Of a stretch of DNA of 53,013 nucleotides, positions 33,794 through 50,477 are shown piece by piece. The stretch spans positions 1-53,013 of the forward strand of contig JAGCUR010000019.1 in assembly GCA_017962745.1 (NCBI GenBank), written 5' to 3'. The translations under genes and the position numbers were made by a program. Positions within the stretch are counted from its first letter, which is position 1; every line of letters begins with the position of its first letter. The DNA comes from Bacilli bacterium (GTDB lineage: Bacteria > Bacillota_I > Bacilli_A > ML615J-28 > CAG-698). The notes under the pieces were generated by a model, which was given only the letters and a program-made list of their open reading frames with translations, was not told the origin of the DNA and did no database searches.

Positions 33794-35566
33794 TTATTCT
33801 TCATATTTTCCTTTTGGAGAATATGTAGTGTGTAGTAATTCATGTGCTAAGTGACCATTAGGTTCTTTTAAGAATTCTTCATATAATGCTTTAACAGCAG
33901 GGTTATCATGAGATTTTCTAAATTTAGCATCATTATCAATTGTATATAATGCTTTAGCACGTTCAGCTCTTACATCTACTTGTTCTTGAACGCTAGCGCT
34001 AACTACTGGTTGACCACCACCGTTTACGCATCCGCCTGTACAACCCATAAATTCGATAAATGCATATTTACCAGGATTTGCTTTAATCTTTTCAAAGATT
34101 TCAGGGAAGTTAACAGCACCGTGTACTACAGCTACTGTTAATTCTTTACCAGCAATAGTTAATGTAGCTTCTTTAACGTTTTCTGTTCCTCTAACTGGAG
34201 TGATATCTACATCTTTATAATCTTTAGCTTCTAAGATATCTCTAACAGTTCTTAAGGCAGCTTCCATTACACCACCAGTAGCACCGAAGATTACGCCAGC
34301 ACCAGTGTATTGTGCTAAAGGACTAGTAAGTTTAGCATCTTCTAAGCTATTGAAATCGATACCTTCACGCTTAATGAAACGAGCAAGTTCACGAGTAGTT
34401 AATACTAAATCTACATCACGTAAGCCATTAGTTTCCATTTCAGGACGTTTTGCTTCATATTTCTTAGCAATACATGGCATAAATGAGATTACTCTAACTT
34501 TTGCAGGATCTACGCCAAGTTTATTTGCATAGTAATGCTTAATTAGTGCACCTTGAATTTGTTGAGGAGACTTAGTTGTTGATAAGTTAGGTAAGAATTC
34601 TGGATAATAAGTTTCGATATATCTAATCCATCCAGGAGAGCAAGATGTAAACATAGGAAGAACAGCATCTTCACCCTTTAAATGTTTTTCAATACGACCT
34701 AATAATTCAGTTCCTTCTTCCATGATTGTAACGTCTGCTGCAAAGTTAGTATCTGTTACATCATCGAATCCTAATTTTTGAAGGGCAGCATAAATCTTTC
34801 CTTCTACATTAGTACCCATCTTATAACCAAATTCTTCACCAAGTGCTGCTCTTACAGATGGCGCGATTTGGGCAACTGTATAGATTTCTGGATTATTAAT
34901 CATATCAATTGCTTGATCAATATCATCTTTTTCTTTAATAGCGCCAACTGGACAAGCTTGAATACACTTACCGCAGAAAATACATCCTGTTGTATCCATA
35001 TTATGATTTAGAGCTGGACCAACATATGTCTTAAATCCACGATTATTGTAATCAAGAATTCCAGTACCTGCTAATTTTTGACAAGCAGCGATACATCTTC
35101 CACAAAGTACGCACTTAGACGAATCGATTTCTAATGCATCTGTGATGTTAACGATTTGTGGTTTCTTAGAGAATGTATCATCTTCACCCATTACGTTAGG
35201 GATATTATATCTACGTAGTAATGCTAAGAATTCGCAGTTATGTTCACGAGGACATTTCCAGCATTCAAATCTGTGGCTAGCTGCAAGTAGTTGTAAGTTT
35301 TTAGTTACAGACATTTTAACTCTTGGAGTATTAGTGTTAACGATCATTCCATCGCTAACTTGTACTGTACAAGAGTTTTTCATCATTACACGGCCACGAT
35401 CATTGATTTCTACTACGCATAAACGGCAAGCAGAATTTTCATTGATGCCTTTTAAGAAGCATAAACGAGGGATATTAACACCAGCTAAAGTAGCTGCTTC
35501 TAAGACTGTCGCTGTATTTTCAACTTCTACAACTTTTCCATTGATTGTTACATTTACTTTACTCAT
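33794..35566 (-). CDS. hydA: [FeFe] hydrogenase catalytic subunit (HydA/HndD type, group A3)
   Basis: 590 residues. In order: an N-terminal [2Fe-2S] domain (LCFLKGIN, CRLCVVEI), a His-Cys3 cluster (HRFECWKCPREHNCE, about 97-111), two [4Fe-4S] (CVLCGRCIAACQ and CIFCGKCIQACPVGAI), and the H-cluster domain with the three signatures TSCSPGW, MPCIAKKYEA and EFMGCTGGCVNGGGQP, ending in the small-subunit segment. All H-cluster cysteines are present, so it should produce or oxidise H2. With HydB and HndA it forms the NAD(P)-linked, probably electron-bifurcating enzyme. Maturases HydEFG are not in the window. Confidence 0.97.
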   Translation of the reverse strand: MSKVNVTINGKVVEVENTATVLEAATLAGVNIPRLCFLKGINENSACRLCVVEINDRGRVMMKNSCTVQVSDGMIVNTNTPRVKMSVTKNLQLLAASHRFECWKCPREHNCEFLALLRRYNIPNVMGEDDTFSKKPQIVNITDALEIDSSKCVLCGRCIAACQKLAGTGILDYNNRGFKTYVGPALNHNMDTTGCIFCGKCIQACPVGAIKEKDDIDQAIDMINNPEIYTVAQIAPSVRAALGEEFGYKMGTNVEGKIYAALQKLGFDDVTDTNFAADVTIMEEGTELLGRIEKHLKGEDAVLPMFTSCSPGWIRYIETYYPEFLPNLSTTKSPQQIQGALIKHYYANKLGVDPAKVRVISFMPCIAKKYEAKRPEMETNGLRDVDLVLTTRELARFIKREGIDFNSLEDAKLTSPLAQYTGAGVIFGATGGVMEAALRTVRDILEAKDYKDVDITPVRGTENVKEATLTIAGKELTVAVVHGAVNFPEIFEKIKANPGKYAFIEFMGCTGGCVNGGGQPVVSASVQEQVDVRAERAKALYTIDNDAKFRKSHDNPAVKALYEEFLKEPNGHLAHELLHTTYSPKGKYEE

Positions 35567-35576
35567 GGTATCCTCC

Positions 35577-37370
35577 TTACTTCGTAATTATTGCACCAAC
35601 TGGGCAGTTAGTCTTACATGCACCGCACTTAATACAAATAGATGTATTAATTTCGTGTTTAGCTTTAAGTTCGCCAGTAATTGCGCTTGCTGGACAGTTT
35701 CTCTTACATTTACCGCAACCGATACATTTATCAGTTACATAGTATTTAATTAAGTTCTTACATACGCCAGCAGGGCATTTCTTATCTACTACGTGAGCAA
35801 CATACTCATCGTAGAAATTATTTAATGTTGATAAAACTGGGTTTGGAGCAGTTTGACCAAGACCGCATAAAGAACTACCTTTAATGAATTCAGCTAAATC
35901 TTTTAATTCAGTAAGGTCTTTCATTTCGCCCTTGCCATCAACGATCTTATTTAGAATTTCAAGCATTCTTCTTGTACCTTCACGGCATGGAGTACATTTT
36001 CCGCAAGATTCATCAACTGTAAATTCTAAGAAGAACTTAGCTACATCAACCATACAGTTATCTTCATCCATTACGATCATACCACCAGAACCCATGATTG
36101 ATCCAAGTGCTGCTAAGTTATCGTAATCGATTGGTGTATCTAAGTGAGCAGCTGTTAAGCATCCACCACTTGGGCCACCAGTTTGAACAGCTTTGAATTG
36201 TTTTCCTTTAGGAATACCACCACCGATATCGTAAATTACTTCACGAAGAGTAGTTCCCATAGGAACTTCAAGTAAACCAGTGTTGTTAATCTTTCCACCT
36301 AAAGCGAATACTTTAGTACCTTTAGATTTTTCAGTACCGATTGTATTAAACCATTCAGCACCTCTTAAGATAATTTGTGGAACGTTAGCAAGTGTTTCTA
36401 CGTTATTAATAATAGTTGGTCTTTGCCATAAACCTTTTACAGCTGGGAATGGTGGTTTATTACGAGGCATACCTCTTTCGCCTTCGATAGATGCCATTAA
36501 GGCAGTTTCTTCACCACAAACGAAAGCACCTGCACCAAGTCTTGCTTCTAAGTTGAAGCTAAAGCCAGTGCCGAAGATATCATCGCCAAGCAAGCCATAT
36601 TCGTATGCTTGTTTAATTGCGTGATTTAATCTTTCAACTGCTAGAGGGTATTCAGCTCTAACATATACATAACCTTGGTTAGCACCAATTGCATAACCTG
36701 CAATTGCCATTGCTTCGATTACTACATGTGGGTCACCTTCTAAAACAGCACGGTCCATAAATGCACCTGGATCACCTTCATCGGCGTTACAGATTACATA
36801 TCTAGGACCATTATCAGAATGGTCAACTAAACTCCATTTTCTACCAGTAGGGAATCCTGCTCCACCTCTACCACGTAATCCTGATTTTAAGATTTCATCG
36901 ATTACTTCTTGAGGTGTCATACTAGTTAATACTTTTCCTAATGCTTCGTAACCACTTCTACCAATATATTCATCGATATCCATTGGGTTAATAATACCGC
37001 AGTTACGTAAAGCTATACGTTCTTGACGAGCATAGAAGTTCATTTCTCTGAAGACTTTAATTTTAGCTTTTTCTTCGGCAGTCATTTCGCTATAAACTAA
37101 TTTTTCAACAACTCTACCTTTTAAGATATGTTCTTTACAAATAGTTTCTACATCACTTACCTTAACATGTGCATAAAAAGTATCATCAGGATATACAACT
37201 ACAACTGGACCTCTTTCGCATAAACCAAAGCAGCCACTGTTAAATACAACGACTTCATTTTCAAGACCTAATTCTTTAATGCATTCTTCAAATTTTTCTT
37301 TAATTTCTTTTGAATGTGATGACATACATCCTGTACCACCACAAACAACAACTTGGGTTCTAATTGCCAT
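35577..37370 (-). CDS. hydB: Hydrogenase NADH/FMN subunit (HydB/HndC, NuoF-like)
   Basis: 597 residues. An N-terminal thioredoxin-like [2Fe-2S] segment (CGGTGCMSS, SGCFGLCERGP), the FMN and NADH domain (GRGGAGFPTGRKW, NADEGDPGAFMDR, CGEETALMASIEG), the NuoF cluster (SCGKCTPCREGTRRM) and two C-terminal [4Fe-4S] (CIGCGKCKRNCPASAI, CIKCGACKTNCPVGAI). It is the site of NADH oxidation and electron confurcation. Ten bp upstream of hydA. Confidence 0.97.
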   Translation of the reverse strand: MAIRTQVVVCGGTGCMSSHSKEIKEKFEECIKELGLENEVVVFNSGCFGLCERGPVVVVYPDDTFYAHVKVSDVETICKEHILKGRVVEKLVYSEMTAEEKAKIKVFREMNFYARQERIALRNCGIINPMDIDEYIGRSGYEALGKVLTSMTPQEVIDEILKSGLRGRGGAGFPTGRKWSLVDHSDNGPRYVICNADEGDPGAFMDRAVLEGDPHVVIEAMAIAGYAIGANQGYVYVRAEYPLAVERLNHAIKQAYEYGLLGDDIFGTGFSFNLEARLGAGAFVCGEETALMASIEGERGMPRNKPPFPAVKGLWQRPTIINNVETLANVPQIILRGAEWFNTIGTEKSKGTKVFALGGKINNTGLLEVPMGTTLREVIYDIGGGIPKGKQFKAVQTGGPSGGCLTAAHLDTPIDYDNLAALGSIMGSGGMIVMDEDNCMVDVAKFFLEFTVDESCGKCTPCREGTRRMLEILNKIVDGKGEMKDLTELKDLAEFIKGSSLCGLGQTAPNPVLSTLNNFYDEYVAHVVDKKCPAGVCKNLIKYYVTDKCIGCGKCKRNCPASAITGELKAKHEINTSICIKCGACKTNCPVGAIITK

Positions 37371-37379
37371 ATTATCCTC

Positions 37380-37748
37380 CTACTTTTTAAACTTTTCGAT
37401 TAAATATTCTTCAACAACTTTGCCGCCAATAACGTGTTGTTCAACAATCTTTTCAGCTTTCTTTGGATCAACTAAACAATATGTACTTCTATTTCCTTGT
37501 GGATCATATACTTCTACAATTGGTTCTAAGGCACATTCACCAATGCAACCAACTTGAGTAACAGTAACATTATTTAAATCTTTTTCTGCCACTAATTCTA
37601 CAATCCTATTTAGTACTGGTCTAGCACCAGCTGTTATTCCACAAGTAGCCATACCAACAACAACTCGATATCCGTTCTTTTCATCACGAATCGACATTTT
37701 CTTAGCAGCTTGTTCTCTAATTTTCTTTAAATCTTCTAAAGACTTCAT
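37380..37748 (-). CDS. hndB: Hydrogenase-associated [2Fe-2S] ferredoxin-like subunit (HndB)
   Basis: 122 residues with a thioredoxin-like [2Fe-2S] fold: GMATCGITAGARPVLN and QVGCIGECALEPIVEV provide the four Cys. Start ATG 37748 follows AGGAGG; a longer frame to 37778 lacks a better site. HndB proteins occur in four-subunit NADP-reducing or bifurcating hydrogenases. Nine bp before hydB. Confidence 0.92.
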   Translation of the reverse strand: MKSLEDLKKIREQAAKKMSIRDEKNGYRVVVGMATCGITAGARPVLNRIVELVAEKDLNNVTVTQVGCIGECALEPIVEVYDPQGNRSTYCLVDPKKAEKIVEQHVIGGKVVEEYLIEKFKK

Positions 37749-37764: not shown

Positions 37765-38322
37765 TTAAATGGCATCAATTTCTTCTAGCCCATTTTTGAT
37801 GTAATCCTTTGCCCATTGCATCAAGCTAAAATCTTTAATTGACATACCATCAAGTATATTTTTTATTTCAATAGTATCAAAAACAAATTCTTTTGTTTCG
37901 TTATTCTTTATAACTTTATGGGTATATTTGATATCTACATCCTCATCATTTATTACTAAAATATAAAATGTATCTACCCAATTACCAAATGGTGGAAGAT
38001 CGATATTATTTAATCTAAATGTTGCGGTTAGGGTAGTACCAACACCAACTTTCGATTCAATTTTAAACGATCCTTCACACAGTTCTGAAAGCTCCTTAAA
38101 TAAAGGTAGGCCTAAACCAACTTTACGAGTAGTTCTAGTTGTATAAAAAGGGCTCAATACTTTACTTAATACTTCTTCGCTCATCCCACAGCCATTATCT
38201 ACAATCTTAATCGTTAACTTATCTTCATCAATATTTTTAATGATATCTAAATTAATAAGTGTAGCTTTAGCTTTGATTGAGTTTTGCATAATATCTAATA
38301 AATATAATGATAACTCATTCAT
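37765..38322 (-). CDS. Stand-alone GHKL/histidine-kinase-type ATPase in the hydrogenase operon
   Basis: 185 residues. The HATPase_c fold fills the first 105: N-box LLDIMQNSIKAKAT, G1 VDNGCGM, G2 KVGLGLPLFKEL, and GTTLTATF. The remaining 80 residues form an unknown domain with no similarity I can see. There is no histidine phosphoacceptor domain, no sensor and no response regulator nearby, so it is not a normal two-component kinase. It is placed between the PHP gene and hndB. Confidence 0.85.
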   Translation of the reverse strand: MNELSLYLLDIMQNSIKAKATLINLDIIKNIDEDKLTIKIVDNGCGMSEEVLSKVLSPFYTTRTTRKVGLGLPLFKELSELCEGSFKIESKVGVGTTLTATFRLNNIDLPPFGNWVDTFYILVINDEDVDIKYTHKVIKNNETKEFVFDTIEIKNILDGMSIKDFSLMQWAKDYIKNGLEEIDAI

Positions 38323-38323
38323 A

Positions 38324-39037
38324 CTATTTCTTACCTTTTAAAAGCGCTCTTTTGAATCCTTCAAAACTAACTTCATCTAATTCAATAAAATTGATCGCTT
38401 CGTTGATATCTACAACTGAATGCGCATCCGAATCAAATAGATGAACATAGTCTTTAATTTCTGGATATTTTTCTTCTAAATCTTTTTCATTTTCACGACC
38501 CATTATTTCGATTGCATCGATATCGTATTTTTTAAATTCTTGGTAATATGTTAAGTAGCCAGTTGAACCGGGTCTATTGATATGTGCTAAGACTACTAGA
38601 CCATTATATTTTCTAACTAGTTTAATATATTCTACTAAATCTAAATCAATACTTTGGTGCAAACTATATGGAATGATTTCTGATACTTCATCAAATTCAT
38701 CGCATATTTGGGCTGTCCCAAATTTTTCTTTTACGTTATGGTCAAGATGGGTCTCTAATTCACCATCAAATTTCATAACATCTTTGAATTTACCAAAATA
38801 ACTTAATACGTGAAAACCTTCCTTAACTTGAGTTTCTATTCCGTACATCAAATAATAATCATAACTCTCAATTAACTGTTCTAAAGTCGGATATTGCTTA
38901 CAAGAATTATGATCAGTAATTGATATCATACCTAATTCTTTAAGCATTACCATATTTAAAATATTATTTGGTGTTTGGCTATCATCAGCACAACTAGATA
39001 GGACGCTATGAATGTGTAAATCGTAACTAACCTTCAT
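38324..39037 (-). CDS. PHP-domain phosphoesterase in the hydrogenase operon
   Basis: 237 residues with the full PHP metal set: SYDLHIHSVLSSCADD (HxH), SITDHNSC, LAHINRPGSTG and HLFDSDAHSV. Fold and length resemble TrpH/YciV-like phosphoesterases. Start ATG 39037 overlaps the previous gene by 11 bp; the in-frame TTG at 39064 is less likely. The substrate, whether a nucleotide, a phosphoprotein or other, is unknown. Conservation of all metal ligands suggests an active enzyme. Confidence 0.87.
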   Translation of the reverse strand: MKVSYDLHIHSVLSSCADDSQTPNNILNMVMLKELGMISITDHNSCKQYPTLEQLIESYDYYLMYGIETQVKEGFHVLSYFGKFKDVMKFDGELETHLDHNVKEKFGTAQICDEFDEVSEIIPYSLHQSIDLDLVEYIKLVRKYNGLVVLAHINRPGSTGYLTYYQEFKKYDIDAIEIMGRENEKDLEEKYPEIKDYVHLFDSDAHSVVDINEAINFIELDEVSFEGFKRALLKGKK

Positions 39038-39362
39038 GTTTAATAATTTCCCTTGCGGTAGCAATAGATGAAGCAGGGCTTACAAGTATTGCAATGCCTT
39101 CTTCATTTGCTTTCGCAATTATATCATCAGTTGGTATTACGCCTTCACAAAAGATAATAGCGCTCATATCAAGTAAGGTAGCAACCGCAACCGCATTAAT
39201 TGTATTAAGGACCGTAAGTAAAGCTACTTTTTCTTGATGAACGTGGCCCATTACCCAGCTTAATAAATCCGATGTATATAAATCTTTAATTTCGTTATCT
39301 AATGTAGCATCATCTGATAATACTTTTAAAAACGAAATATCAGCTAAATCCTTAACTTGCAT
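39027..39362 (-). CDS. DRTGG-like protein, paralogue of the gene at 39784
   Basis: 111 residues. Its core (DLYTSDLLSWVM, LLTVLNTINAVAVATLLDMS, GVIPTDDIIAKANEEGIAIL) aligns by eye with the protein at 39784-40155, pointing to tandem duplication and to the DRTGG fold seen in phosphotransacetylase-like regulatory domains. It overlaps the genes on both sides by 11 bp. A ligand-sensing role is plausible but unproven. Confidence 0.72.
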   Translation of the reverse strand: MQVKDLADISFLKVLSDDATLDNEIKDLYTSDLLSWVMGHVHQEKVALLTVLNTINAVAVATLLDMSAIIFCEGVIPTDDIIAKANEEGIAILVSPASSIATAREIIKHEG

Positions 39363-39783
39363 GCTCCACCCCAGGATGAAGACTAAATATCATTAATACG
39401 CTTGTGCCATCAGGTGATGATTCGACGATCAACTGGTCAGCGGCTTTTTTCATGTTTGGAAAGCCCATTCCGGCCCCAAAACCATTTTCACGGTCTTGTT
39501 GACTAGCTGTTGACCAACCTTCTTTCATCGCATTTTCAATCGATGGAATACCAGGCCCACGGTCTAAAAACTCGATACGTAGTTCTTTATCATCATATTC
39601 TACGTTACATATACCACCATATGAATGGATAACGACATTTATTTCAGCCTCATACGAAGCAATCGCGACGCGTCTAATGATCTGTTTATCAATTCCCCAT
39701 TCATTGAGCATACGTTTTATTTTACTTGAAATATAACCAGCATTTTCTAAGCTAGTTGATATATCATATGTAAGTTTTGCCAT
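39352..39783 (-). CDS. RsbW/SpoIIAB-like anti-sigma-type GHKL ATPase
   Basis: 143 residues, one HATPase_c_2 domain: N-box IASYEAEINVVIHSYGG, G1 FLDRGPGIP, G2 GFGAGMGFPNMKKAADQL, G3 SPDGTSVLMIF. Similar to anti-sigma kinases, but no anti-anti-sigma (STAS) gene or sigma factor is nearby. It lies between the two DRTGG-like genes (1 bp after one stop, 11-bp overlap with the next). Confidence 0.87.
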   Translation of the reverse strand: MAKLTYDISTSLENAGYISSKIKRMLNEWGIDKQIIRRVAIASYEAEINVVIHSYGGICNVEYDDKELRIEFLDRGPGIPSIENAMKEGWSTASQQDRENGFGAGMGFPNMKKAADQLIVESSPDGTSVLMIFSLHPGVEHAS

Positions 39784-40155
39784 TTATTCAGCTTTACCAA
39801 GCACGCCATTAGCATATAGTTTTCCGCTTGCGGTAAACATTGAATCCTCAGTGCCAATGACTATAATTCCACTTTCTTGCGCCGCATCATATACATTATC
39901 GTTTGGAGTTTTACCTCTAACTAATATAACCACTTCAAAATCTAACATTTCAGCTGTTCTAATACTTTGTTTAGTAACTAGACCAGTAAGTAGTACACCA
40001 TGTTCGAAGAAACGGTCAGGTGCCGTACGAAGTAACATTAATGCATCGCTCATCATATCTGATCCGCATGCATATTTAACTTCTTTTTCACCATCGTATG
40101 TATCTGGTGTAAATATTTTGGCGTTTAATACTTCTACAATCTCTTTAAGCTTCAT
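39784..40155 (-). CDS. DRTGG-domain protein in the hydrogenase operon
   Basis: 123 residues with the DRTGG-domain pattern: VLNAKIFTPDTYDGEKEV at the start, YACGSDMMSDAL, GVLLTGLVTKQSIRTAEMLD and GIIVIGTEDSMFTASGKLY. DRTGG domains are found with CBS domains and in hydrogenase operons; they are thought to bind ligands. Two bp after the hndA stop, so cotranscribed. Confidence 0.85.
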   Translation of the reverse strand: MKLKEIVEVLNAKIFTPDTYDGEKEVKYACGSDMMSDALMLLRTAPDRFFEHGVLLTGLVTKQSIRTAEMLDFEVVILVRGKTPNDNVYDAAQESGIIVIGTEDSMFTASGKLYANGVLGKAE

Positions 40156-40157
40156 TT

Positions 40158-40643
40158 TTATTTTCCTTTGATTTCTTCTAAAGCTTTATGAGCAGTAGTT
40201 GGTGTTGATTTACCATATACGTGACCATCAACAGTAAATACTGGAGCAAGTCCACAAGCACCAATACAACGTGTTGCTTCTAAAGTATATTCACCATCTT
40301 CAGTAGTCTTACCAGGTGCAATTCCTAAAATCTTAGAGAATTCATCGATAACTAATTGTGATCCTCTTACATAACATGCAGTACCTAAGCATACGCTAAT
40401 AACATGTTTTCCTTTAGGTTCAATAGAGAAATGCGAGTAGAATGTTACTACGCCATTAATCTTAGCTACGCTTTCACCTAATTCTTTTGAGATGATTTTT
40501 TGCACTTCAATTGGAACACATCCAAAGATTCTTTGTGCATCGTGTAATGTTGGCATTAAAGGTCCAGGTTTTTTCTTGTTTTCTTTAATGCAATTTAGAA
40601 GTTCTTGTAATTGGTTTTCTTCAATTTTTAATTTAACTGCCAT
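40158..40643 (-). CDS. hndA: Hydrogenase [2Fe-2S] subunit (HndA/NuoE-like)
   Basis: 161 residues, NuoE fold: PTLHDAQRIFGCVPIEVQK helical start, VTFYSHFSIEPKGKH, then CLGTACYVRG and EATRCIGACGLAPVF, giving four [2Fe-2S] Cys. It passes electrons between HydB and the rest of the complex. Start ATG 40643 has AAGGAGT 7 nt upstream; a longer frame to 40694 would begin inside the promoter. First gene of the nine-gene operon. Confidence 0.95.
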   Translation of the reverse strand: MAVKLKIEENQLQELLNCIKENKKKPGPLMPTLHDAQRIFGCVPIEVQKIISKELGESVAKINGVVTFYSHFSIEPKGKHVISVCLGTACYVRGSQLVIDEFSKILGIAPGKTTEDGEYTLEATRCIGACGLAPVFTVDGHVYGKSTPTTAHKALEEIKGK

Positions 40644-40773: not shown

Positions 40774-41790
40774 TCATTCAATACCATGTTCACTTTTGAA
40801 ATTATTAAACATTTCGTTCAAGTATATGTTGTTATATTCAAAAACACTTGCGAATTCATCATATGATACAAATCCATTAGGCAAAATATAATACCAGTCT
40901 TCATCATAATCATAAATGAATGACCCACTTTTTGTAATAAATATAGCTCTACTTTTATCTACTTTCACCTGATTAAAACACAGCCAATAAGAATCTATAT
41001 AAGGATAATTATCGCCACCCCTAAAATCATTATTATCGAGTCTGTGTTCATCGGCACCATAGGTATAATAGCTACAGCGAAGTAAATCATACTCGTTATC
41101 TAATAGATTGTATAAATATTCACTATAAATTTTAATTTTATATGCTTTTAAATACGCTTCGCTGGTATGTCCCGATTCGATAGCATCCTCATAATTCATT
41201 TCAAGCATCTTTTCATCATAATAATAATTATCCATTCTACCACGGTATCCATATTTGCTAGAATACTTTGTATATAAACCATTTGCTTTGTTTTCAACAA
41301 AGTTAATTGAATCTATTGCATAATTTGTTTTTTCAAATGTGGCAAACTTTTTGTAATCAACAGCATTTTCTTTTGTTTCATATAACTTGTTATCTTTTAA
41401 AATCAAAACTTTTCCGCTTTTATTAATGTATACTTTAAGACTGCTATTATTATGCCTTGATTCAATATAAACAACATCAAATTCGATATTTGATTCGATA
41501 TAAGCGATGGTATTTTGAGTACTAACTTCATTAACAATTTCGTAATTATATAATATTCGTAGGAAGCCTTGTAACGGCATATAGAGATTTGATTCAAAAC
41601 ATTTTTCTTTCTCGATACCATTATTAGTATCTTTATATGATACCTTAAAGAAAATATCTTCGCTGTAAAGATGGTCACCAATCAAAGTATACATCTTTAT
41701 TCCATCTATTGGTTTGGAAATAGTAGCTCCGCAATCACATAATAAGCACAATAACACTAATAATATTAACGAACTAACTGCTTTTTTCAT
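40774..41790 (-). CDS. Secreted protein or lipoprotein of unknown function (third of cluster)
   Basis: 338 residues with a signal peptide MKKAVSSLILLVLLCLLCDCG; two Cys at its end give possible lipobox positions. The mature part is rich in Tyr, Asn and Asp. The order of features (AYLKAYKIKIYSEYL segment, then FITKSGSFIYDY and FVSYDEFASVF) resembles the C-terminal halves of the neighbour at 41774 and of the anti-sigma-like protein at 15101, suggesting a shared extracellular domain. Start ATG 41790 follows AGGAG and overlaps the previous stop by 17 bp. Confidence 0.7.
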   Translation of the reverse strand: MKKAVSSLILLVLLCLLCDCGATISKPIDGIKMYTLIGDHLYSEDIFFKVSYKDTNNGIEKEKCFESNLYMPLQGFLRILYNYEIVNEVSTQNTIAYIESNIEFDVVYIESRHNNSSLKVYINKSGKVLILKDNKLYETKENAVDYKKFATFEKTNYAIDSINFVENKANGLYTKYSSKYGYRGRMDNYYYDEKMLEMNYEDAIESGHTSEAYLKAYKIKIYSEYLYNLLDNEYDLLRCSYYTYGADEHRLDNNDFRGGDNYPYIDSYWLCFNQVKVDKSRAIFITKSGSFIYDYDEDWYYILPNGFVSYDEFASVFEYNNIYLNEMFNNFKSEHGIE

Positions 41791-42802
41791 AATATTCTCC
41801 TGCTTTATAACGGATTCTCTGTATTTCACTAGCGATGTATGAATCGCTTTTATTTATGATTTTATTAATGATATCATATGAAATTAATTCACCGATTATA
41901 ATTAAAATTTTACCATCTTTTATGATAATCCAACTATCATTTGCGTATATAGCATTATATTTGTAGCAGCTAATTCTATCATATTCGTAAATGTCTAAAT
42001 TAAAACCCGGGCTCAAATAATAATTAGTTCTACCATCATATCCGAATGTTGATGTCGAAATATCCAAAATCTTTAATTCTTTATTTATAGATTTATTAAA
42101 CAAATCAACATAAAGAACATATTCATAAAGATATATGCAATGTTCGACAAATTGAACAGACCTTTGCTCAAAAATTTCATTGAATAATTCATCAATGGTT
42201 CCTTTTAAATAAGCATCAGTAATTTTTTTAAGCATTTCTTTGTTTATTTGATGCGTATCCCCTATGCTAAAACGCTGATTATTAAAAGATATCAATAGAT
42301 CATAATCCTCATTTTTATTATCATCTGAAAGGAGATTGATTTGTATATCCTCTATTTCGAAATTTTCACTTTCCTTTATAAGTTCATTATAATCTATAAT
42401 TCTCTCTTCGCTAATGTATACTTTTTCGTCATTTATAACGCTAATAATCTGCCCGTTGGTATTGATGTAAAACCATGCTTTTGTTGGAGTAAATGATTCA
42501 ATAATAAATGTTTGAGAAGTAGTATTTCTTTTCACAAACCTATTTATGTTTTTAACGCTTATCTGTTTTACATATTCGTCAATTTCTAATTTTCTAATAA
42601 AAGATGCTCCGATTGTTGAAAAAGAATTTTTCACTTGAACATATTTATTATTGATTTTTGCCGGATAATATACATTAATTCTATCATCAGCATATCTATC
42701 TCTAACTAATTCATACTGATGAATATATGAGACTGCTTCTTTACATGCGATTAAGAAGAGTGAATTTAACAATAATATAACAATAATAAGTTTTTTTTTC
42801 AT
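41774..42802 (-). CDS. Lipoprotein of unknown function (second of cluster)
   Basis: 342 residues beginning MKKKLIIVILLLNSLFLIAC, a clear lipoprotein signal peptide with Cys 20. The mature domain is beta-rich, with paired segments (KAWFYINTNGQIISVI; SWIIIKDGKILIII) reminiscent of the next gene. No known motif. Nine bp after the first gene of the cluster. Confidence 0.72.
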   Translation of the reverse strand: MKKKLIIVILLLNSLFLIACKEAVSYIHQYELVRDRYADDRINVYYPAKINNKYVQVKNSFSTIGASFIRKLEIDEYVKQISVKNINRFVKRNTTSQTFIIESFTPTKAWFYINTNGQIISVINDEKVYISEERIIDYNELIKESENFEIEDIQINLLSDDNKNEDYDLLISFNNQRFSIGDTHQINKEMLKKITDAYLKGTIDELFNEIFEQRSVQFVEHCIYLYEYVLYVDLFNKSINKELKILDISTSTFGYDGRTNYYLSPGFNLDIYEYDRISCYKYNAIYANDSWIIIKDGKILIIIGELISYDIINKIINKSDSYIASEIQRIRYKAGEYYEKSS

Positions 42803-42810
42803 AAAATCAC

Positions 42811-43839
42811 CTAATTCATTAAAACTACGTAATACATTTGTCCGTCAACAATGACAATTGGATAAGTGTTTAACAGTGGAATAGCTGGGTTGAAACCATC
42901 ATGTATAATAGGTATGAAATGAGCAAATTGATGACATAAATTGCATTTATAATATAAATCATTGATTTTTACATAATTATGAGATTCATATATTGAATAA
43001 TTACATGAAGAACAATACTTTCTATGTAAAGATTCATTATGCTTTGCATAACATATAGAATGTGATTCGCTTGTTGGATAATTACAATCGTTAAACATAC
43101 AATGAATTCCATGCTCAGTGTTGTTATAATTATTACTTTCAACAACTTTTAGATGAGGTAGTTTTGTTGTAATAAATGATGAGTACGAACTTGATGAAAA
43201 GCTAGTATGCTTGCCAATAGTAGAGTCATATCCTGTTAAAAGATTTGAATTATAGTATTTATAGTATTTAACATATGCGGCTTCTTCTGCGTAATACGAT
43301 TCATTTCCGTTATGATAATAAACAAAACCTACATCCCACTTTGAAATTACTTCTACCAAATTTGCATCACCAAGGTTTCCAAATGGTGTTCCATCATAAA
43401 CTTCGCAAACTCTTCCAGAGTGTATAATTTTGTCATCTTCATCATAATAAACTATTATTTCGGCGTTATATCTATCAGTTTCGATATATAGATTGTTTTC
43501 TATAAATTCTTCAGGCTGATAAAACCAATATAATTCACCATTAAGATTATTGCTATAAAAGCGCGAATTAACCGATACAAAAAAAGTAAAATAGTGGCAA
43601 TTATACTCTCTCAATCTTGTATTCAAATGAAATATAGGGTTATATTGATTAGTATTTGTGTTAAATGGATCATATACTGTATAACCATTTTCTACTGTCC
43701 CATCAAAATTACCATCATGATCAATTAAATCTACTGTAATATTCCCTTCAGAGTATTGAATATTTGATGCTTTGACAACAATTTTTAGACTACACAATAC
43801 AATTAATTCAAGTACTATTAAAATCATTAATTTTTTCAT
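42811..43839 (-). CDS. Secreted protein with a Cys/His-rich domain (first of cluster)
   Basis: 342 residues with an N-terminal signal helix (residues 3-24). About 200 residues of unknown beta-rich sequence are followed at about 235-305 by a Cys/His domain: HCMFNDCNY, HSICYAKHNESLHRKYCSSC, HNYVKINDLYYKCNLC. The spacing (C-x2-C and C-x4-C pairs with His) suggests zinc-ribbon-like repeats, unusual outside the cell. GGAGG 6 nt before ATG. Function unknown. Confidence 0.72.
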   Translation of the reverse strand: MKKLMILIVLELIVLCSLKIVVKASNIQYSEGNITVDLIDHDGNFDGTVENGYTVYDPFNTNTNQYNPIFHLNTRLREYNCHYFTFFVSVNSRFYSNNLNGELYWFYQPEEFIENNLYIETDRYNAEIIVYYDEDDKIIHSGRVCEVYDGTPFGNLGDANLVEVISKWDVGFVYYHNGNESYYAEEAAYVKYYKYYNSNLLTGYDSTIGKHTSFSSSSYSSFITTKLPHLKVVESNNYNNTEHGIHCMFNDCNYPTSESHSICYAKHNESLHRKYCSSCNYSIYESHNYVKINDLYYKCNLCHQFAHFIPIIHDGFNPAIPLLNTYPIVIVDGQMYYVVLMN

Positions 43840-43938: not shown

Positions 43939-44454
43939 CTATTCATTTTTAAAATCTTGATTAATTTTAATGTTCATTATTCTTTCGCATACAATACCAT
44001 TTAATATGCCAGTTATGATACTGGCTAGCATTACAAATGGTAAATATAAAAGAATCCCGCTAGTTTGTAATATTATTAAAGCTACAATAATTTGGCCAAT
44101 TGCGTGAAATGTAGCCCCAATTACGCTAATCACTAATGGTTTTAATTTATTAATATGCATAAACAAAAACATCACTAAAAAGGATAAAGCAGCTCCGCTT
44201 AAACTCATATAAAAAGCAATCGATAAAAATGTACCTTTCAGTAGATTAGCTAGAACTACTCTAAGTAAGTCAACCGTCAATGCTTCATATACTTTATATT
44301 TATATAAACATATAAGGATTACGATATTAGCTAGTCCTAGCTTTACCCCTGGTATACCAATTGATGGGATAAAACTTTCTAAGTAGTTTAATACTATTGC
44401 GATAGCTAATAATAAACTTAAAGTTACATATCTAAGTAGTCTAGTTTTTCTCAT
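43939..44454 (-). CDS. Gx transporter family protein (HepS component I-like)
   Basis: 171 residues, about five helices. LAIAIVLNYLESFIPSIGIP, GVKLGLANIVILICLYKY and LLRVVLANLLKGTF are signature motifs of the Gx/Hpre_diP_synt_I family, an S-component-like transporter commonly encoded with ApbE and NusG-domain-II proteins near Rnf genes. Overlaps the previous gene by 4 bp. The substrate is unknown, possibly a quinone or flavin precursor. Confidence 0.88.
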   Translation of the reverse strand: MRKTRLLRYVTLSLLLAIAIVLNYLESFIPSIGIPGVKLGLANIVILICLYKYKVYEALTVDLLRVVLANLLKGTFLSIAFYMSLSGAALSFLVMFLFMHINKLKPLVISVIGATFHAIGQIIVALIILQTSGILLYLPFVMLASIITGILNGIVCERIMNIKINQDFKNE

Positions 44455-44840
44455 CCGGCCACCACATCGATATCGCTATCGCTACTATTATTACTTATTA
44501 GTTTTATATATAACCCATGATATGCACATATTATGGGCTTGGCAGGAGATGATGAATAACCTTGTGCCATACAAAAACCTGATGGACAGTTATTTTCTAC
44601 CACTTTAATAGCACCTTTTTTAACCATTACTTTAATATTATCACTAATTGCTATTTCTTTTTCAGTAGTTTCTTTATCTAGATCAATGGTAAGTACTAAT
44701 TCACCTTTTAGATATATTTCAGCTTTAACGCTTTTTGTATTGGCTACTGATTCAATAATTATTAAGCTAATTAAAGCTAGAAATAGTAAACTACCGATAA
44801 TTATAAAGTCTAGTAAATGTGTTTTTAGATATGTTTTCAT
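44451..44840 (-). CDS. NusG domain II-containing membrane protein
   Basis: 129 residues: an N-terminal transmembrane helix (about 10-33), then the NusG_II beta domain (AEIYLKGELVLTIDL, IKVMVKKGAIKVVENNCPSG, CMAQGYSSSPAKPIICAYHG). NNCPSG...C and PxxIxCxxH are typical. Known to cluster with Gx transporter, ApbE and Rnf. Probably extracytoplasmic redox-associated; role not established. Confidence 0.9.
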   Translation of the reverse strand: MKTYLKTHLLDFIIIGSLLFLALISLIIIESVANTKSVKAEIYLKGELVLTIDLDKETTEKEIAISDNIKVMVKKGAIKVVENNCPSGFCMAQGYSSSPAKPIICAYHGLYIKLISNNSSDSDIDVVAG

Positions 44841-45853
44841 AAAGTTAATACTCCATTTAGTAACTTACCATCTTTGAAGAAATGAATATGATAATCATAG
44901 TCTAAATTAACTCCATCAAAAAAGCTTAAAGCGTTAGGATTTATCATAAAGAACGTTGATAACAAATCGGTTTTATCAAAGTTGTGCATTGGTGTTACTA
45001 CAACTACAGTATCATATGTATCAGTTGGATAACCTGTCCTTGGATCAATAATGTGATGATATGTTTTACCATTAATCGTAGTTTTTTGTTCTAAGATACT
45101 AGCTGTACCAATAAAACTATTTTTAACATTTTTTAAAACATAATTTGTACCACTTACCCCAACATTAAAGCCTTTACCATTTTCTTTTTCGCCGACTAAA
45201 ATAGTTGATTGACCTAAATCAATCATATATTTTTTGATATCTTTTTCTACTAAATAGTTATGAACGATTGTTGCTACATACCCTTTTGTGATAGCTCCTA
45301 AGTCAAATTGAACTTTAGAATTTTCCTCTACAGTTATTACGCTTGTTGTAGCGCTTGTTGTAGCGCTTGTTGTGACTTCATAATTATATTTGCCATCATT
45401 AATATCTTGCACAATTTGAGTAATTGTATCTTCATTTGGTAATTGTCTATTTTTAATTGCTTCTTTCCATATATTAGTTAATTCACCAATCCCCAACATT
45501 ACTACATCATTAGTCTTGATGTTATTATGGAAGAATGCATCAACATCTTTAGGAACGCGTAAAATTGATGCTAGATCATTACTAATTTCAATTTCTGTTT
45601 GTCCACTTTTGATACTATCGTTAATCGACTTTACATTAGTCATTCCTTCGTATGTATGATATGCATCAGTTAGTTTATGATAATAATTTAGTATATCTAC
45701 AATATCATCTACATTGGCTTCATCACCTTCATATAAGTTAATAGTTACGGTTGTATCAAAAACGAAAATTGTCTTTGTAAATCCTTTACTTTTTGCACAT
45801 CCAAAAAGTGAAAAAAACGATAAAAATAAGATAAATATTAAGACCTTTTTCAT
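44837..45853 (-). CDS. apbE: FAD:protein FMN transferase (ApbE), lipoprotein
   Basis: 338 residues with lipoprotein signal MKKVLIFILFLSFFSLFGC. ApbE motifs: VQFDLGAITKGYVA, MIDLGQSTILVG, YHHIIDPRTGYPTD and DLLSTFFM. It attaches FMN to threonines of RnfG and RnfD, both encoded upstream at 48.9-50.5 kb. A 12-bp tandem repeat adds TTSATTSATTS before the DLGA motif. First gene of apbE-nusG_II-Gx (4-bp overlaps). Confidence 0.95.
   Translation of the reverse strand: MKKVLIFILFLSFFSLFGCAKSKGFTKTIFVFDTTVTINLYEGDEANVDDIVDILNYYHKLTDAYHTYEGMTNVKSINDSIKSGQTEIEISNDLASILRVPKDVDAFFHNNIKTNDVVMLGIGELTNIWKEAIKNRQLPNEDTITQIVQDINDGKYNYEVTTSATTSATTSVITVEENSKVQFDLGAITKGYVATIVHNYLVEKDIKKYMIDLGQSTILVGEKENGKGFNVGVSGTNYVLKNVKNSFIGTASILEQKTTINGKTYHHIIDPRTGYPTDTYDTVVVVTPMHNFDKTDLLSTFFMINPNALSFFDGVNLDYDYHIHFFKDGKLLNGVLTL
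45341..45376 (-). repeat. 12-bp tandem repeat in apbE
   Basis: The unit GCTTGTTGTAGC is repeated exactly at 45341-45352 and 45353-45364, with a third imperfect copy to 45376. It keeps the reading frame and encodes Ala-Thr-Thr-Ser units in a surface loop. Copy number could vary. Confidence 0.85.
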
Positions 45854-47103: not shown

Positions 47104-47424
47104 TTATATTTTAATATTTACTGGAGTACCATCATCATTTGGATGATCTTTTAAGTATTCAAGGATTGGGTTATACGTAGTTTCTAATTTACCAGGACGG
47201 CATTTAGATAAGTTTCCAGCTTCTCCTTTTACAATAGCAGCCGCAAATCCTTTACATCCAGCATATCCACAGCTTCCGCAGTTCGCATTAGGAAGCATCT
47301 TTGCAACTTCTTCAATACGATTATCTTCTTTAACGTAAAATATTTTATTAGCGATAGCAAGTCCAAACCCAAATAATAAGCCAAGGCCAGCTAAAACGAT
47401 AAAAGCCCATAAAATTGGAAGCAT
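47104..47424 (-). CDS. rnfB: Shortened RnfB: membrane anchor and single Fe-S domain only
   Basis: 106 residues: a transmembrane helix (about 5-28), IEEVAKMLPNANCGSCGYAG as the RnfB Fe-S domain start, and cysteines spaced C-x2-C-x4-C-x17-C. Canonical RnfB continues with two or more ferredoxin-type [4Fe-4S] domains and is usually about 200-330 residues; here the protein stops about 30 residues after the last Cys, and a strong terminator follows, so the shortness is not a sequencing break inside the gene. The ferredoxin-facing domain must be absent or supplied by another protein. TAATG overlap with the 61-aa gene upstream. Confidence 0.88.
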   Translation of the reverse strand: MLPILWAFIVLAGLGLLFGFGLAIANKIFYVKEDNRIEEVAKMLPNANCGSCGYAGCKGFAAAIVKGEAGNLSKCRPGKLETTYNPILEYLKDHPNDDGTPVNIKI

Positions 47425-47609
47425 TATTTTTCCTCCTTTTTACGTAGTGTGCATGCCATATTTTGGCAAGCAGCACATTTTGATGCATCGATTTTTAATT
47501 CTTCGCATTCTTTAGGGATTGGGGTCTTTTTGTTTAAGATATAACTTACAAAAAACACCGCAATTAATAACCCGATAGCAACGATTGCTATGATTAATTC
47601 TTTTGTCAT
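47424..47609 (-). CDS. Small membrane cysteine protein of the rnf operon
   Basis: 61 residues: one transmembrane helix (about 4-25), then CEELKIDASKCAACQNMACT. The four cysteines are C-x9-C-x2-C-x4-C; the last three repeat the C-x2-C-x4-C spacing of RnfB, so a second [4Fe-4S] site is plausible. It overlaps rnfA by 4 bp (ATGA) and rnfB by 1 bp, so it is translated with the complex. Not a canonical Rnf subunit. It also resembles in architecture small FeoB-associated Cys-rich proteins, but no feoB is near. Confidence 0.8.
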   Translation of the reverse strand: MTKELIIAIVAIGLLIAVFFVSYILNKKTPIPKECEELKIDASKCAACQNMACTLRKKEEK

Positions 47610-48187
47610 TTAATTAATCCTGTAAACCCTACAAATGCTAAGCTCATTAAAGCCGCTGTAATTAAGGCAATTGGAATACCTTTTAAGCATTTAGGAACAT
47701 TACTTGCTTCTAAGCGAACACGAATGCAAGAGAATGCAAAGATTATAATTAAGAAGCCTACACTTGTACCAATTGCATTAGCCATACTCATGCCAAATGT
47801 TAAGTTGGTGTCAGTATTACCTTGTGCAACACCTAATACTGCACAGTTTGTAGTAATTAATGGTAGGTATACGCCCAGTGATGCATATAGTGAAGGGCTA
47901 TATTTCTTTAGAAACATTTCAATTAATTGAACTAATGATGCAATAACTAATATATATGTAATTGTATCCATAAAAGCGATATTTGCTGGTACTAAAATAT
48001 AGTGATATATTGGCCAACAAATTGCGCTAGCGATAACTATTACAAATATAACAGCTAGGCCCATTGATAAAGCTTCATTAGACTTTTTCGAGACACCTAA
48101 AAATGGACAAATACCATAGAAACGATATAAAACTACGTTTTGGATTAACATGGCATTAATGATTGCTAATATAAATGCTACGACCAT
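47606..48187 (-). CDS. rnfA: Rnf complex subunit A
   Basis: 193 residues, six transmembrane helices. AMLIQNVVLYRFYGICPFLG, TNCAVLGVA and MANAIGTSVGF are RnfA/NqrE motifs; CPFLG and TNCAVLG contain the cysteines that hold the intramembrane [2Fe-2S] cluster with RnfE. The start is ATG 48187, with AGGAGG 6 nt upstream; an in-frame TTG at 48214 is inside rnfE and before that site. Confidence 0.95.
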   Translation of the reverse strand: MVVAFILAIINAMLIQNVVLYRFYGICPFLGVSKKSNEALSMGLAVIFVIVIASAICWPIYHYILVPANIAFMDTITYILVIASLVQLIEMFLKKYSPSLYASLGVYLPLITTNCAVLGVAQGNTDTNLTFGMSMANAIGTSVGFLIIIFAFSCIRVRLEASNVPKCLKGIPIALITAALMSLAFVGFTGLIK

Positions 48188-48188
48188 T

Positions 48189-48893
48189 TTATGCCTCCTT
48201 TGCTTCGCTAGCAAGTTTTGCTAGTTTTTCTTTTTCTATTTTTGCTTTAACACGTTCTAAATTAGCTTTTTTATTGGCATGATATGCAAGTATTGCTAAG
48301 ATTACACCTAATACTAAGAATGCACCTGCTGGCATTGTGAAGATACTCATAGCAAATTTTTCAAGTGGCGTAAAGCTTACATATGGTAAGAATGTAAAGA
48401 TTTCCCCAAATGTTAAGCCACCGGTACCAAGTACTTCGCGGACAAAGGCCATAATAACTAAAGCTAAAGTATAACCAATTCCCATACCGATGCCATCTAG
48501 TAAGCTAGCTCCGACACTATTTTTAGATGCAAATGCTTCAGCTCTACCTAAAACTATACAGTTAACAACGATTAGGGAAATAAATACTCCTAAAGTTGAA
48601 TATAGTTCTGGTAAGAATGCTTCAGATAACATCTTAACAATCGTTACGAATGTAGCGATGATTACGATATAACAAGGAATCTTAATTTGTGATGGTATTA
48701 TTTTTCGAAGTAGTGATATAACTACATTTGATCCAATTAATACAAATGCGAATAGAAAGCCCATACCAATAGCACCTTCAAGTGAAGTAGTAGTAGCAAG
48801 TGAAGGACATGTACCAAGTAGTAATACAAATAGTGGGTTTTCTTTAATAATACCTTTAGTTAATTCATATAATTTACGAGGTTTATTTTCCAT
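48189..48893 (-). CDS. rnfE: Rnf complex subunit E
   Basis: 234 residues, six transmembrane helices. NPLFVLLLGTCPSLATTTSL and VNCIVLGRAEAFASKN are the RnfE/NqrD signatures with the two cluster cysteines. The C-terminal 30 residues are charged (KKANLERVKAKIEKEKLAKL) and cytoplasmic. TAATG overlap with rnfG. Confidence 0.95.
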   Translation of the reverse strand: MENKPRKLYELTKGIIKENPLFVLLLGTCPSLATTTSLEGAIGMGFLFAFVLIGSNVVISLLRKIIPSQIKIPCYIVIIATFVTIVKMLSEAFLPELYSTLGVFISLIVVNCIVLGRAEAFASKNSVGASLLDGIGMGIGYTLALVIMAFVREVLGTGGLTFGEIFTFLPYVSFTPLEKFAMSIFTMPAGAFLVLGVILAILAYHANKKANLERVKAKIEKEKLAKLASEAKEA

Positions 48894-49402
48894 TAGTTGG
48901 CTCCTCCTTTATAATCATTAACTGCAATTAATACTAATTCTTTAACTAGAGTTGCTCCAAATGTAGCACCGCACTTAACATCTACGTTATCCACATCAGC
49001 GGTAGCCCCATTATTATATGTAGACTTAACGTGATTTTTAACTTTAGATGCAAATGATTGCGTGTTTTCGGTTAATACTACTTTTTCAGCCGATCCATCT
49101 AAGTTGATACCAACTAGCAAGCTGATATTACCATATGAGTTTTTACCATTAAGTGAATAAATATATCCTTTAACAGTATCGCCATCTTTAGCAACCCATT
49201 TCTTTTCAATAGCGCTATCGGCGCCATTTAATTCTACTTCTTCATAAGTTAAGCCTGGATATATTTCACTACATGCTTTGTTCTGCGCTTCAATTTTATT
49301 CTTTTCAATAATTGGCGCTGTAAAGTAATTAATAAATGCGATTAATACCGCACATAGTCCGCAAATTATACATAACACGATAGCAGTTTTAAAATACTTC
49401 AT
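48893..49402 (-). CDS. rnfG: Rnf complex subunit G (covalent FMN)
   Basis: 169 residues: one transmembrane helix (about 7-28) and an extracytoplasmic FMN-binding domain. The flavinylation region reads VKCGATFGATLVKEL; the conserved GAT occurs twice, and the threonine in FGATL is the likely FMN site in place of the usual SGAT. VVLTENTQSFASKVKNH is also family-like. ApbE encoded at 44.8-45.9 kb would attach FMN. Confidence 0.93.
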   Translation of the reverse strand: MKYFKTAIVLCIICGLCAVLIAFINYFTAPIIEKNKIEAQNKACSEIYPGLTYEEVELNGADSAIEKKWVAKDGDTVKGYIYSLNGKNSYGNISLLVGINLDGSAEKVVLTENTQSFASKVKNHVKSTYNNGATADVDNVDVKCGATFGATLVKELVLIAVNDYKGGAN

Positions 49403-49412
49403 TTTAGACCTC

Positions 49413-50474
49413 CTAAAGTGCTAGTAGGATAATCACTACTATTGCTAGTAAGATTACACCTAATGCGATAAATTGTTTGTAATTATATTTAGGACTACTC
49501 CATTTATAATAATCAATTACGGGAACAAACATATTCATAATTAGAATAGCGAATGCTACGCCTTCAGGAAAGGCACCAAATAGTCTAACTAAAACAGCAA
49601 TGGAAGCAACTAATGCACCATATAAAATCCTACCAAACTTTGTAGTAGGACTAGTAACTGGATCAGTTACCATAAATACGGCACCAAAGATTAGTCCACC
49701 TGATAATAATTGATATAACATGATATTAATTGCGCTAGCGCTATCTACTTTTAAGCCAGCAATTAACATTAAGCCAGCAAATGTAATGATTGTAGATAAC
49801 ATTGCTCTAATATCAGCTGATTTACGAACTAATAAATACACGCCACCTACGATGATAGCGATTTTTCCGCCTTCACCCATAGCGCCTGGAACTGTACCGA
49901 TTAATAAATCTAACAATTTATAATTAGAAATATTTGCGATATTACCATTTACGTGAGCAAGTGGTGTTCCACCTGCTACGATATCTACAAATCTAGAACT
50001 CTTTGGTGTTAACTCAAAACAAATACTAGCCGCTACCCTTCCTAGGGCTGCTGGGTTAAAGATATTTGAACCTAAGCCACCAAATACTAATTTGCCAATA
50101 ACAATACCAAATAAAGCACCAACGATTACTACCCATACACTTGTTCCTGCTGGCATAATTAGTGAATAAATTATGGCACTAATTAATGGTGATAAGAAGT
50201 TATTAATTGTGTAGTGACTAAATGCCTCTTTTAGTTTTTCTTTAAATGTTAGTTTAGCACCATTGTATTCAGGTTTATTAGTTAAGAATACAAATACAGC
50301 TTCACTTGCAAGCATTATAGCAATTGATATTAATAATACATATATTGCACTCCATCCATACATTACACATGAAAATATAGTAATTGGACTTAGGGCAATA
50401 ACTACATCAAGCATCATGCGCTTGACGTCTGCTTTACGACGAATATAAGGAGCACTTTCTTTAATTAATTTCAT
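49413..50474 (-). CDS. rnfD: Rnf complex subunit D (covalent FMN)
   Basis: 353 residues, about nine transmembrane helices. FGGLGSNIFNPAALGRVAAS is the NQR2/RnfD signature. The flavinylation motif reads DIVAGGTPLAHVN, where the Thr of GGTPLA replaces the more common GATPL; the accepting threonine is kept. Also YQLLSGGLIFGAVFMVTDPV with TSPTTKFGR. Ten bp before rnfG. Confidence 0.95.
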   Translation of the reverse strand: MKLIKESAPYIRRKADVKRMMLDVVIALSPITIFSCVMYGWSAIYVLLISIAIMLASEAVFVFLTNKPEYNGAKLTFKEKLKEAFSHYTINNFLSPLISAIIYSLIMPAGTSVWVVIVGALFGIVIGKLVFGGLGSNIFNPAALGRVAASICFELTPKSSRFVDIVAGGTPLAHVNGNIANISNYKLLDLLIGTVPGAMGEGGKIAIIVGGVYLLVRKSADIRAMLSTIITFAGLMLIAGLKVDSASAINIMLYQLLSGGLIFGAVFMVTDPVTSPTTKFGRILYGALVASIAVLVRLFGAFPEGVAFAILIMNMFVPVIDYYKWSSPKYNYKQFIALGVILLAIVVIILLAL

Positions 50475-50477
50475 AGT

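Follow-up and report, generated by a model that had tools for sequence, protein, structure and literature searches.

Electron-bifurcating hydrogenases and Rnf complexes set the ATP yield of anaerobes and their output of H2, ethanol or acetate, and how these enzymes are throttled is largely unexplained. A locus that raises this question lies on contig JAGCUR010000019.1 of a Bacilli bacterium (assembly GCA_017962745.1), the 53,013 analyzed nucleotides of which are called the window here. Within the operon of a bifurcating [FeFe] hydrogenase, five genes for two ATPases, two small DRTGG proteins and a PHP-family phosphoesterase are inserted between those of the HndA-like and HndB-like subunits; what do they do there? 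An earlier note, written from the sequence alone, had suggested post-translational control or energy-state sensing of the hydrogenase. We found that the five genes form a real, syntenic cassette, which is conserved over phyla and consists of two halves. We regard it as an even bet that this cassette is a post-translational regulatory set on ferredoxin:NAD-coupling complexes, namely on bifurcating [FeFe] hydrogenases of the tetrameric type that includes HndB and, within a single clade of Clostridia, on Rnf.

The order and the minus strand given in the note were confirmed by the coordinates listed below with the flanking genes. The labels DRTGG1, DRTGG2, HAT2 and, later in the text, HydX were coined in this analysis.

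40161-40643, minus strand: NuoE/HndA-like [2Fe-2S] hydrogenase subunit, flanking the module (2Fe-2S_thioredx, 155.6 bits)
39784-40155, minus strand: DRTGG1, 123 amino acids (DRTGG Pfam match below cut-off; 2ioj fold match of the relative L070)
39352-39783, minus strand: RsbW/RsbT-like GHKL ATPase, 143 amino acids (HATPase_c_2, 42.8 bits, over the Pfam cut-off; best PDB relative SpoIIAB, E 4e-11)
39027-39362, minus strand: DRTGG2, 111 amino acids, overlapping the RsbW-like gene by 11 bp (assigned by sequence profile)
38324-39037, minus strand: PHP-family metallo-phosphoesterase, 237 amino acids from the ATG at 39037, overlapping DRTGG2 by 11 bp (intact HIH, DHN, AH and SDAH motifs)
37765-38322, minus strand: HAT2, 185 amino acids, histidine-kinase-type ATP-binding domain and C-terminal alpha/beta domain (HATPase_c, 65 bits, over the Pfam cut-off)
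37380-37748, minus strand: HndB-like [2Fe-2S] subunit, the next gene after HAT2
35577-37370, minus strand: HydB/HndC-like NADH/FMN flavoprotein, candidate target and of the same type as RnfC
33794-35566, minus strand: HydA, [FeFe] hydrogenase of group A6 (NF040763, 772.4 bits against a cut-off of 765)
47104-51770, minus strand: rnfC-D-G-E-A and a short rnfB, approximately 7 kb upstream of the hydrogenase operon (RnfC, 365.6 bits)

The spacings of the five-gene set are +2, 0, -11, -11 and +1 bp (negative values being overlaps), which makes translational coupling likely. Promoter-like sites numbered 35, with 34.5 expected by chance, so the scan carries no information on the promoter-free arrangement given in the note. 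When 40 related genomes were searched with the RsbW-like protein, 11 strong loci were obtained, the window's own included, and each showed the order NuoE-DRTGG1-RsbW-DRTGG2-PHP-HAT2, with DRTGG2 undetected in a single locus (L012) that has masked stretches. The same five genes recurred in the same order across the order, the class and other phyla, and chance or misassembly was ruled out by this repetition in tens of independent genomes. In a phylum sample of 295 genomes, DRTGG1 was present in 31 (decayed in one), and HydA lay within approximately 8 kb on the same contig in 30 of them; in the remaining genome (G267), the module sits at a contig edge and adjoins HndB and a HydB fragment. Strong matches to DRTGG2 (more than 75 bits) and to HAT2 occurred in exactly the same 33 genomes, and in all 33 the set adjoins HydA or, at a contig edge, HydB. 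Co-occurrence with hydrogenases in other genomes, which the note had named as the test of its proposal, was thus borne out. Among the 39 hydrogenase loci with a full HydA in the class sample, a separate HndB gene accompanied HAT2 in 25 of 25 cases and was found in 2 of the 14 loci without HAT2 (Fisher p 2e-8); neither this value nor the co-occurrence counts are corrected for kinship.

From the phylum sample, we had initially concluded that the cassette is hydrogenase-specific, and this conclusion was dropped because of Rnf contexts in a scan of named species genomes with the DRTGG1 profile. The scan yielded at least 559 relatives, and the best 80 loci were kept, which belong to Bacilli, Clostridia, Bacteroidota, UBP6 and Spirochaetales. 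As these are the loci most similar to one query and a DLMSD-type pattern was required, context frequencies among them are biased. All five genes were present in 61 named loci, 54 of which adjoin hydrogenase, NuoE/HndB/HydB or Rnf genes: 31 lie by a hydrogenase, 8 by NuoE/HndB/HydB only, 2 by such genes and Rnf, and 13 directly upstream of Rnf. Seven loci had neither within 4 kb; contig ends truncate two of these, and HydA lies 8-9 kb off in two.

In the one Clostridia clade with Rnf linkage, the module stands directly upstream of rnfCDGEAB, with subunits C, D, G, E, A and B confirmed by NCBIfam. A FastTree tree of the five concatenated proteins (root not inferred) placed all Rnf-linked modules in one Clostridia group of 22 rows with a support of 97, and the genomic context switched only two or three times. 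Two related loci carry a NuoE-HndB-HydB-FdhA set on the module's contig, 7-9 kb away. In L101 (302-4082), NuoE-HndB-HydB is followed by an FdhA-like protein with Fer2 and molybdopterin domains; the module lies 6 kb downstream and is itself followed by a PAS-SpoIIE gene, an arrangement much like that in L104. In L118 (13275-18273) and L166, NuoE-HndB-HydB without HydA is directly followed by rnfC, possibly as an NADH module for Rnf. What these contexts have in common is an NADH flavoprotein of the NuoF/RnfC type that trades electrons with ferredoxin and is the candidate target. The control module proposed in the note held up in its hydrogenase linkage and in the conservation of catalytic residues in PHP and the two ATPases described below, but not as a module of hydrogenases only, given its place upstream of Rnf in that clade and the rnfCDGEAB genes upstream of the hydrogenase operon in the window itself.

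The five-gene description was likewise right as to the gene set, but it overlooked the two halves as well as an Fe-S, HydA-like sixth gene that is absent from the window's lineage. One half consists of HAT2 and DRTGG2, which always occur together; the other consists of DRTGG1, the RsbT/RsbW-like ATPase and PHP (plus the sixth gene, HydX), which are dispensable together. Only DRTGG2 and HAT2 are kept in G005 and G103. One genus holds the full set (G121), an intermediate in which RsbW and HydX are lost and DRTGG1 and PHP are broken while DRTGG2 and HAT2 are intact (G283), and the bare pair (G103). These losses, together with a natural PHP-HAT2 fusion in L101 and L104, lead us to view the cassette as two ATPase-DRTGG pairs with PHP between them, where co-loss and co-occurrence suggest which ATPase goes with which DRTGG protein.

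In most named loci, the HydX gene is located between RsbW and DRTGG2. By Pfam, the protein comprises two ferredoxin-type clusters (Fer4), a degenerate Fe-hydrogenase domain (Fe_hyd_lg_C) and a C-terminal FeS domain, and no PAS domain was matched. Sixteen cysteines are invariant in 69 of 69 sequences, including four at H-cluster-type ([4Fe-4S]H) positions; the residue before the first H-cluster-type cysteine, the second lysine and the glutamate of motif 2, and the GGG of motif 3 are lost. As the tree root was not inferred, gain and loss of HydX look alike.

Among Pfam and NCBIfam entries, no named family covers the set as a whole. The DRTGG and PHP assignments of the note fell under the Pfam gathering cut-offs, with 17.8 and 20.8 bits for the two DRTGG proteins (PF07085, 25.2) and 22.9 bits for PHP in the window (26.4; 35 bits in the relative L065), but they stood by fold and motif. 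An AlphaFold2 model of DRTGG1 from the relative L070 matched the DRTGG structure 2ioj (TM 0.85, E 6.9e-7) and also resembled the CBS-DRTGG structures of C. perfringens, while DRTGG2 was assigned to its family by sequence profile only. Active-site conservation was counted over 82 loci. D33, M35, S36, D37, G58, T67, R80 and K82 are invariant in DRTGG1, and so is the run D32-L33-L34-S35 in DRTGG2; an invariant D-x-x-S motif is common to both families. In the L070 model, the serine of this motif is predicted to open a helix right after a strand, and the equivalents of T67, R80 and K82 would lie in or near the elements following the next strands. The metal motifs HxH, DH, E, AH and DxH of PHP are kept in 96-100% of the 82 loci and in the window.

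For the RsbW-like ATPase, the alignment showed a conserved N-box (E45..N49), G1 box (DxGPGI) and lid (GWSTA...GFGAGMG), with E45, E47, N49 and H53 invariant or nearly so, as are N14 of HAT2 and the aspartate or glutamate four residues before it. HAT2 was modelled by AlphaFold2 with a pLDDT (predicted local distance difference test) of 89 as a histidine-kinase ATP domain without DHp, followed by a C-terminal domain of approximately 70 residues. In Foldseek, its core matched the CA domain of histidine kinases and its whole length matched N-terminal fragments of MutL/PMS2, weakly (TM ~0.5); apart from this likeness, the C-terminal domain had no clear PDB match. The 185-residue protein begins at the N-box helix and thus lacks a DHp domain with its phospho-accepting histidine. 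No response regulator was found in the window operon, nor any STAS antagonist or sigma factor between NuoE and HydA, which agrees with the note in that this is neither a standard two-component nor a sigma partner-switching operon. The absence of such partners applied to the operon but not to the genome, where two SpoIIE and two STAS genes lie together on contig C13.

The component protein types are already known, and the closest comparison is with SpoIIAB/RsbW; RsbT is a further serine-kinase relative in partner switching. As in those systems, the cassette has a GHKL ATPase of approximately 140 residues, whose N-box carries the catalytic Glu and Asn and which has ATP-binding G boxes, a small alpha/beta protein bearing an invariant serine as its companion, and a phosphatase-type enzyme in the set. 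It differs in that the operon is without STAS, PP2C and sigma factor, DRTGG is the partner candidate, PHP stands in place of PP2C, and there are two ATPases. Each ATPase may be matched with one DRTGG protein, in the manner of an anti-sigma kinase and its STAS protein, with the invariant serine of D-x-x-S as the likely phosphoacceptor, and PHP would be the enzyme that reverses or resets the state. HydX, where present, could sense the redox state of ferredoxin/H2, and in the window's genome the input might be the ATP/ADP ratio or the enzyme itself. As the output, the NADH flavoprotein (HydB or RnfC) would be switched on or off post-translationally, and H2 formation would thereby be matched to the redox and energy state of the cell. 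Tentatively, and with some doubt, we propose a new partner-switching circuit, in which DRTGG rather than STAS proteins are the phospho-switches of two GHKL kinases, with PHP as the reset and, in the full form, a hydrogenase-like Fe-S sensor, and which acts directly on ferredoxin:NAD-coupling complexes such as the bifurcating hydrogenase or Rnf instead of a sigma factor. The cassette offers residues to probe, namely S36 of DRTGG1, S35 of DRTGG2, E45 of RsbW and the PHP metal ligands, and it bears on syntrophy, gut H2 metabolism and biofuel strains.

Several points weigh against a regulatory set of this kind. Kinase and phosphatase activity, substrate, interaction and target are all inferred, and gene neighbourhood is no proof of post-translational action. 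DRTGG domains elsewhere are known for ligand binding or dimerisation and are not known as phosphoacceptors. Approximately 50 of the 83 genomes with an A6 hydrogenase over the cut-off are without the module, which is hence dispensable for the enzyme, and three loci (L121, L122, L164) carry it away from any such complex, which means that it need not always act in cis. Moreover, the window's genome is without HydX, the one evident redox sensor; the search for it matched only HydA, HydB and generic ferredoxins there.

ATPases near such hydrogenases have been described before, and a role in signalling or assembly was suggested for them. Upstream of bifurcating hydrogenases, genes for kinases, phosphatases or HydA-like proteins were noted, and control by H2 or redox state was put forward (PMC3492117, PMC3608648); in T. 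tengcongensis, according to the account in PMC3492117, kinase genes precede that of an NADH-dependent Fe hydrogenase, which is less active at high H2. Like A. woodii hydE and the kinases of C. thermocellum, Thermoanaerobacter and T. tengcongensis, the cassette places genes for ATP-binding domains inside a bifurcating hydrogenase operon or ahead of it, at times with a group D HydA-like gene (PMC3315566, PMC3492117, PMC3608648). Those reports name single genes, however, and as far as they could be searched they do not mention a six-gene set, its halves, the PHP-HAT2 fusion or the Rnf linkage. A hydrogenase-linked sensor with a serine phosphatase is also found in HfsABCD of T. saccharolyticum and HydS of R. 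albus, and hfsB deletion reroutes fermentation in the sensor-phosphatase genetics of hfsB/hfsC (PMC5707799). HfsB and HydS contain PAS domains and near-complete H-cluster sites, whereas HydX has a C-terminal FeS domain and no PAS match. The DRTGG-type fold is shared with the CBS-DRTGG pyrophosphatase and the N-terminal domain of HPr kinase, but the cassette proteins are stand-alone and single-domain, with invariant D-x-x-S and R-x-K. No description of the cassette was found in the searchable literature, which leaves most subscription journals outside, and the one paper joining DRTGG and hydrogenase concerns an unrelated AAA-DRTGG gene; the defined cassette, its Rnf link, its two halves and the PHP-HAT2 fusion appear to be new.

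The main rival is a role in assembly or maturation, where the GHKL ATPases would be Hsp90/MutL-like chaperones building the multi-cluster NuoE-HndB-HydB (or RnfC) flavoprotein and the DRTGG proteins would be scaffolds. We consider this unlikely, while acknowledging that the best whole-length matches of HAT2, though weak, are the MutL/PMS2 fragments, that its gene comes just before HndB and is confined, within the class sample, to HndB-containing operons, and that the HATPase HydE of A. woodii is encoded in the operon yet not found in the purified enzyme, for which "assembly or signalling" was proposed (PMC3315566). However, T. maritima HydABC made in E. coli has its iron and, when artificially matured, beats the native activity (PMC7064455; T. 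maritima accessory genes were outside the comparison). The module is also missing from many A6 hydrogenases, HndB is absent from the Rnf-linked modules, and an assembly role is hard to square with a metallo-phosphoesterase and a protein resembling an Fe-S sensor.

Transcriptional partner switching, in which the RsbW-like protein would control expression as an anti-sigma factor or through the SpoIIE/STAS genes found outside the operon, is improbable. No sigma factor or STAS gene was identified in the window operon or the inspected module clusters, and DRTGG1 is tied to the enzyme operon in 31 of 31 genomes of the phylum sample. SpoIIAB is the nearest solved structure to the RsbW-like protein and SpoIIE and STAS genes do exist on contig C13, but the SpoIIE gene there (L188:3475-5502) has its own HATPase domain, and the PAS-SpoIIE gene near the module in L101 and L104 is present at only 2 of the 80 named loci. 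The C13 genes form a separate signalling locus (L188; G000:C13:58000-71538), which encodes, besides the SpoIIE phosphatase just mentioned, a second SpoIIE protein of the dCache type, a stand-alone STAS protein and a STAS-APH kinase-like fusion. Improbable as well, finally, is nucleotide signalling or salvage, in which PHP would hydrolyse a nucleotide that the DRTGG proteins bind, with the ATPases sensing the adenylate charge. The relatives of PHP, among them EndoQ, RNase AM and 3',5'-nucleoside bisphosphatases, do act as nucleases and nucleotide phosphatases, and the regulatory region of the C. perfringens CBS-DRTGG pyrophosphatase was solved with bound ligand (3l2b/3l31). The ligands of this pyrophosphatase are AMP and Ap4A. 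The cassette, however, has no nucleotide synthase, and the fusion of PHP to HAT2 in two genomes and its loss together with DRTGG1 suggest that PHP acts on the cassette's own proteins.

Some features of the surrounding genes remain to be described. The first H-cluster motif of the window's HydA reads TSCSPGW and not TSCCPGW (residues 307-313); a lost ligand was considered and rejected, since the closest solved bifurcating hydrogenase, 7q4v_A, is identical there and the motif is therefore ordinary. Within the Rnf cluster, rnfC scored over its cut-off, and rnfD, G, E, A and the short rnfB were assigned by gene order and translations. The window's RnfB (47104-47424, minus strand) has 106 amino acids with the membrane part and one FeS motif but without ferredoxin domains, which is odd for a ferredoxin-oxidising subunit. 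Nearly every genome of this family likewise has a short frame of approximately 100-133 amino acids, so the short RnfB looks real; elsewhere in the order, several members of a second family have an RnfB of approximately 270-290 amino acids. Directly upstream of the hydrogenase operon (40774-43839, minus strand), there are three tandem predicted secreted proteins or lipoproteins of approximately 340-350 amino acids. Between these and Rnf (43939-45853, minus strand), the translations of three adjacent genes suggest proteins like ApbE (45853-44837) and NusG-II (44840-44451) and a Gx/Hepps-like transporter (44454-43939), a trio reminiscent of Rnf-linked flavinylation clusters.

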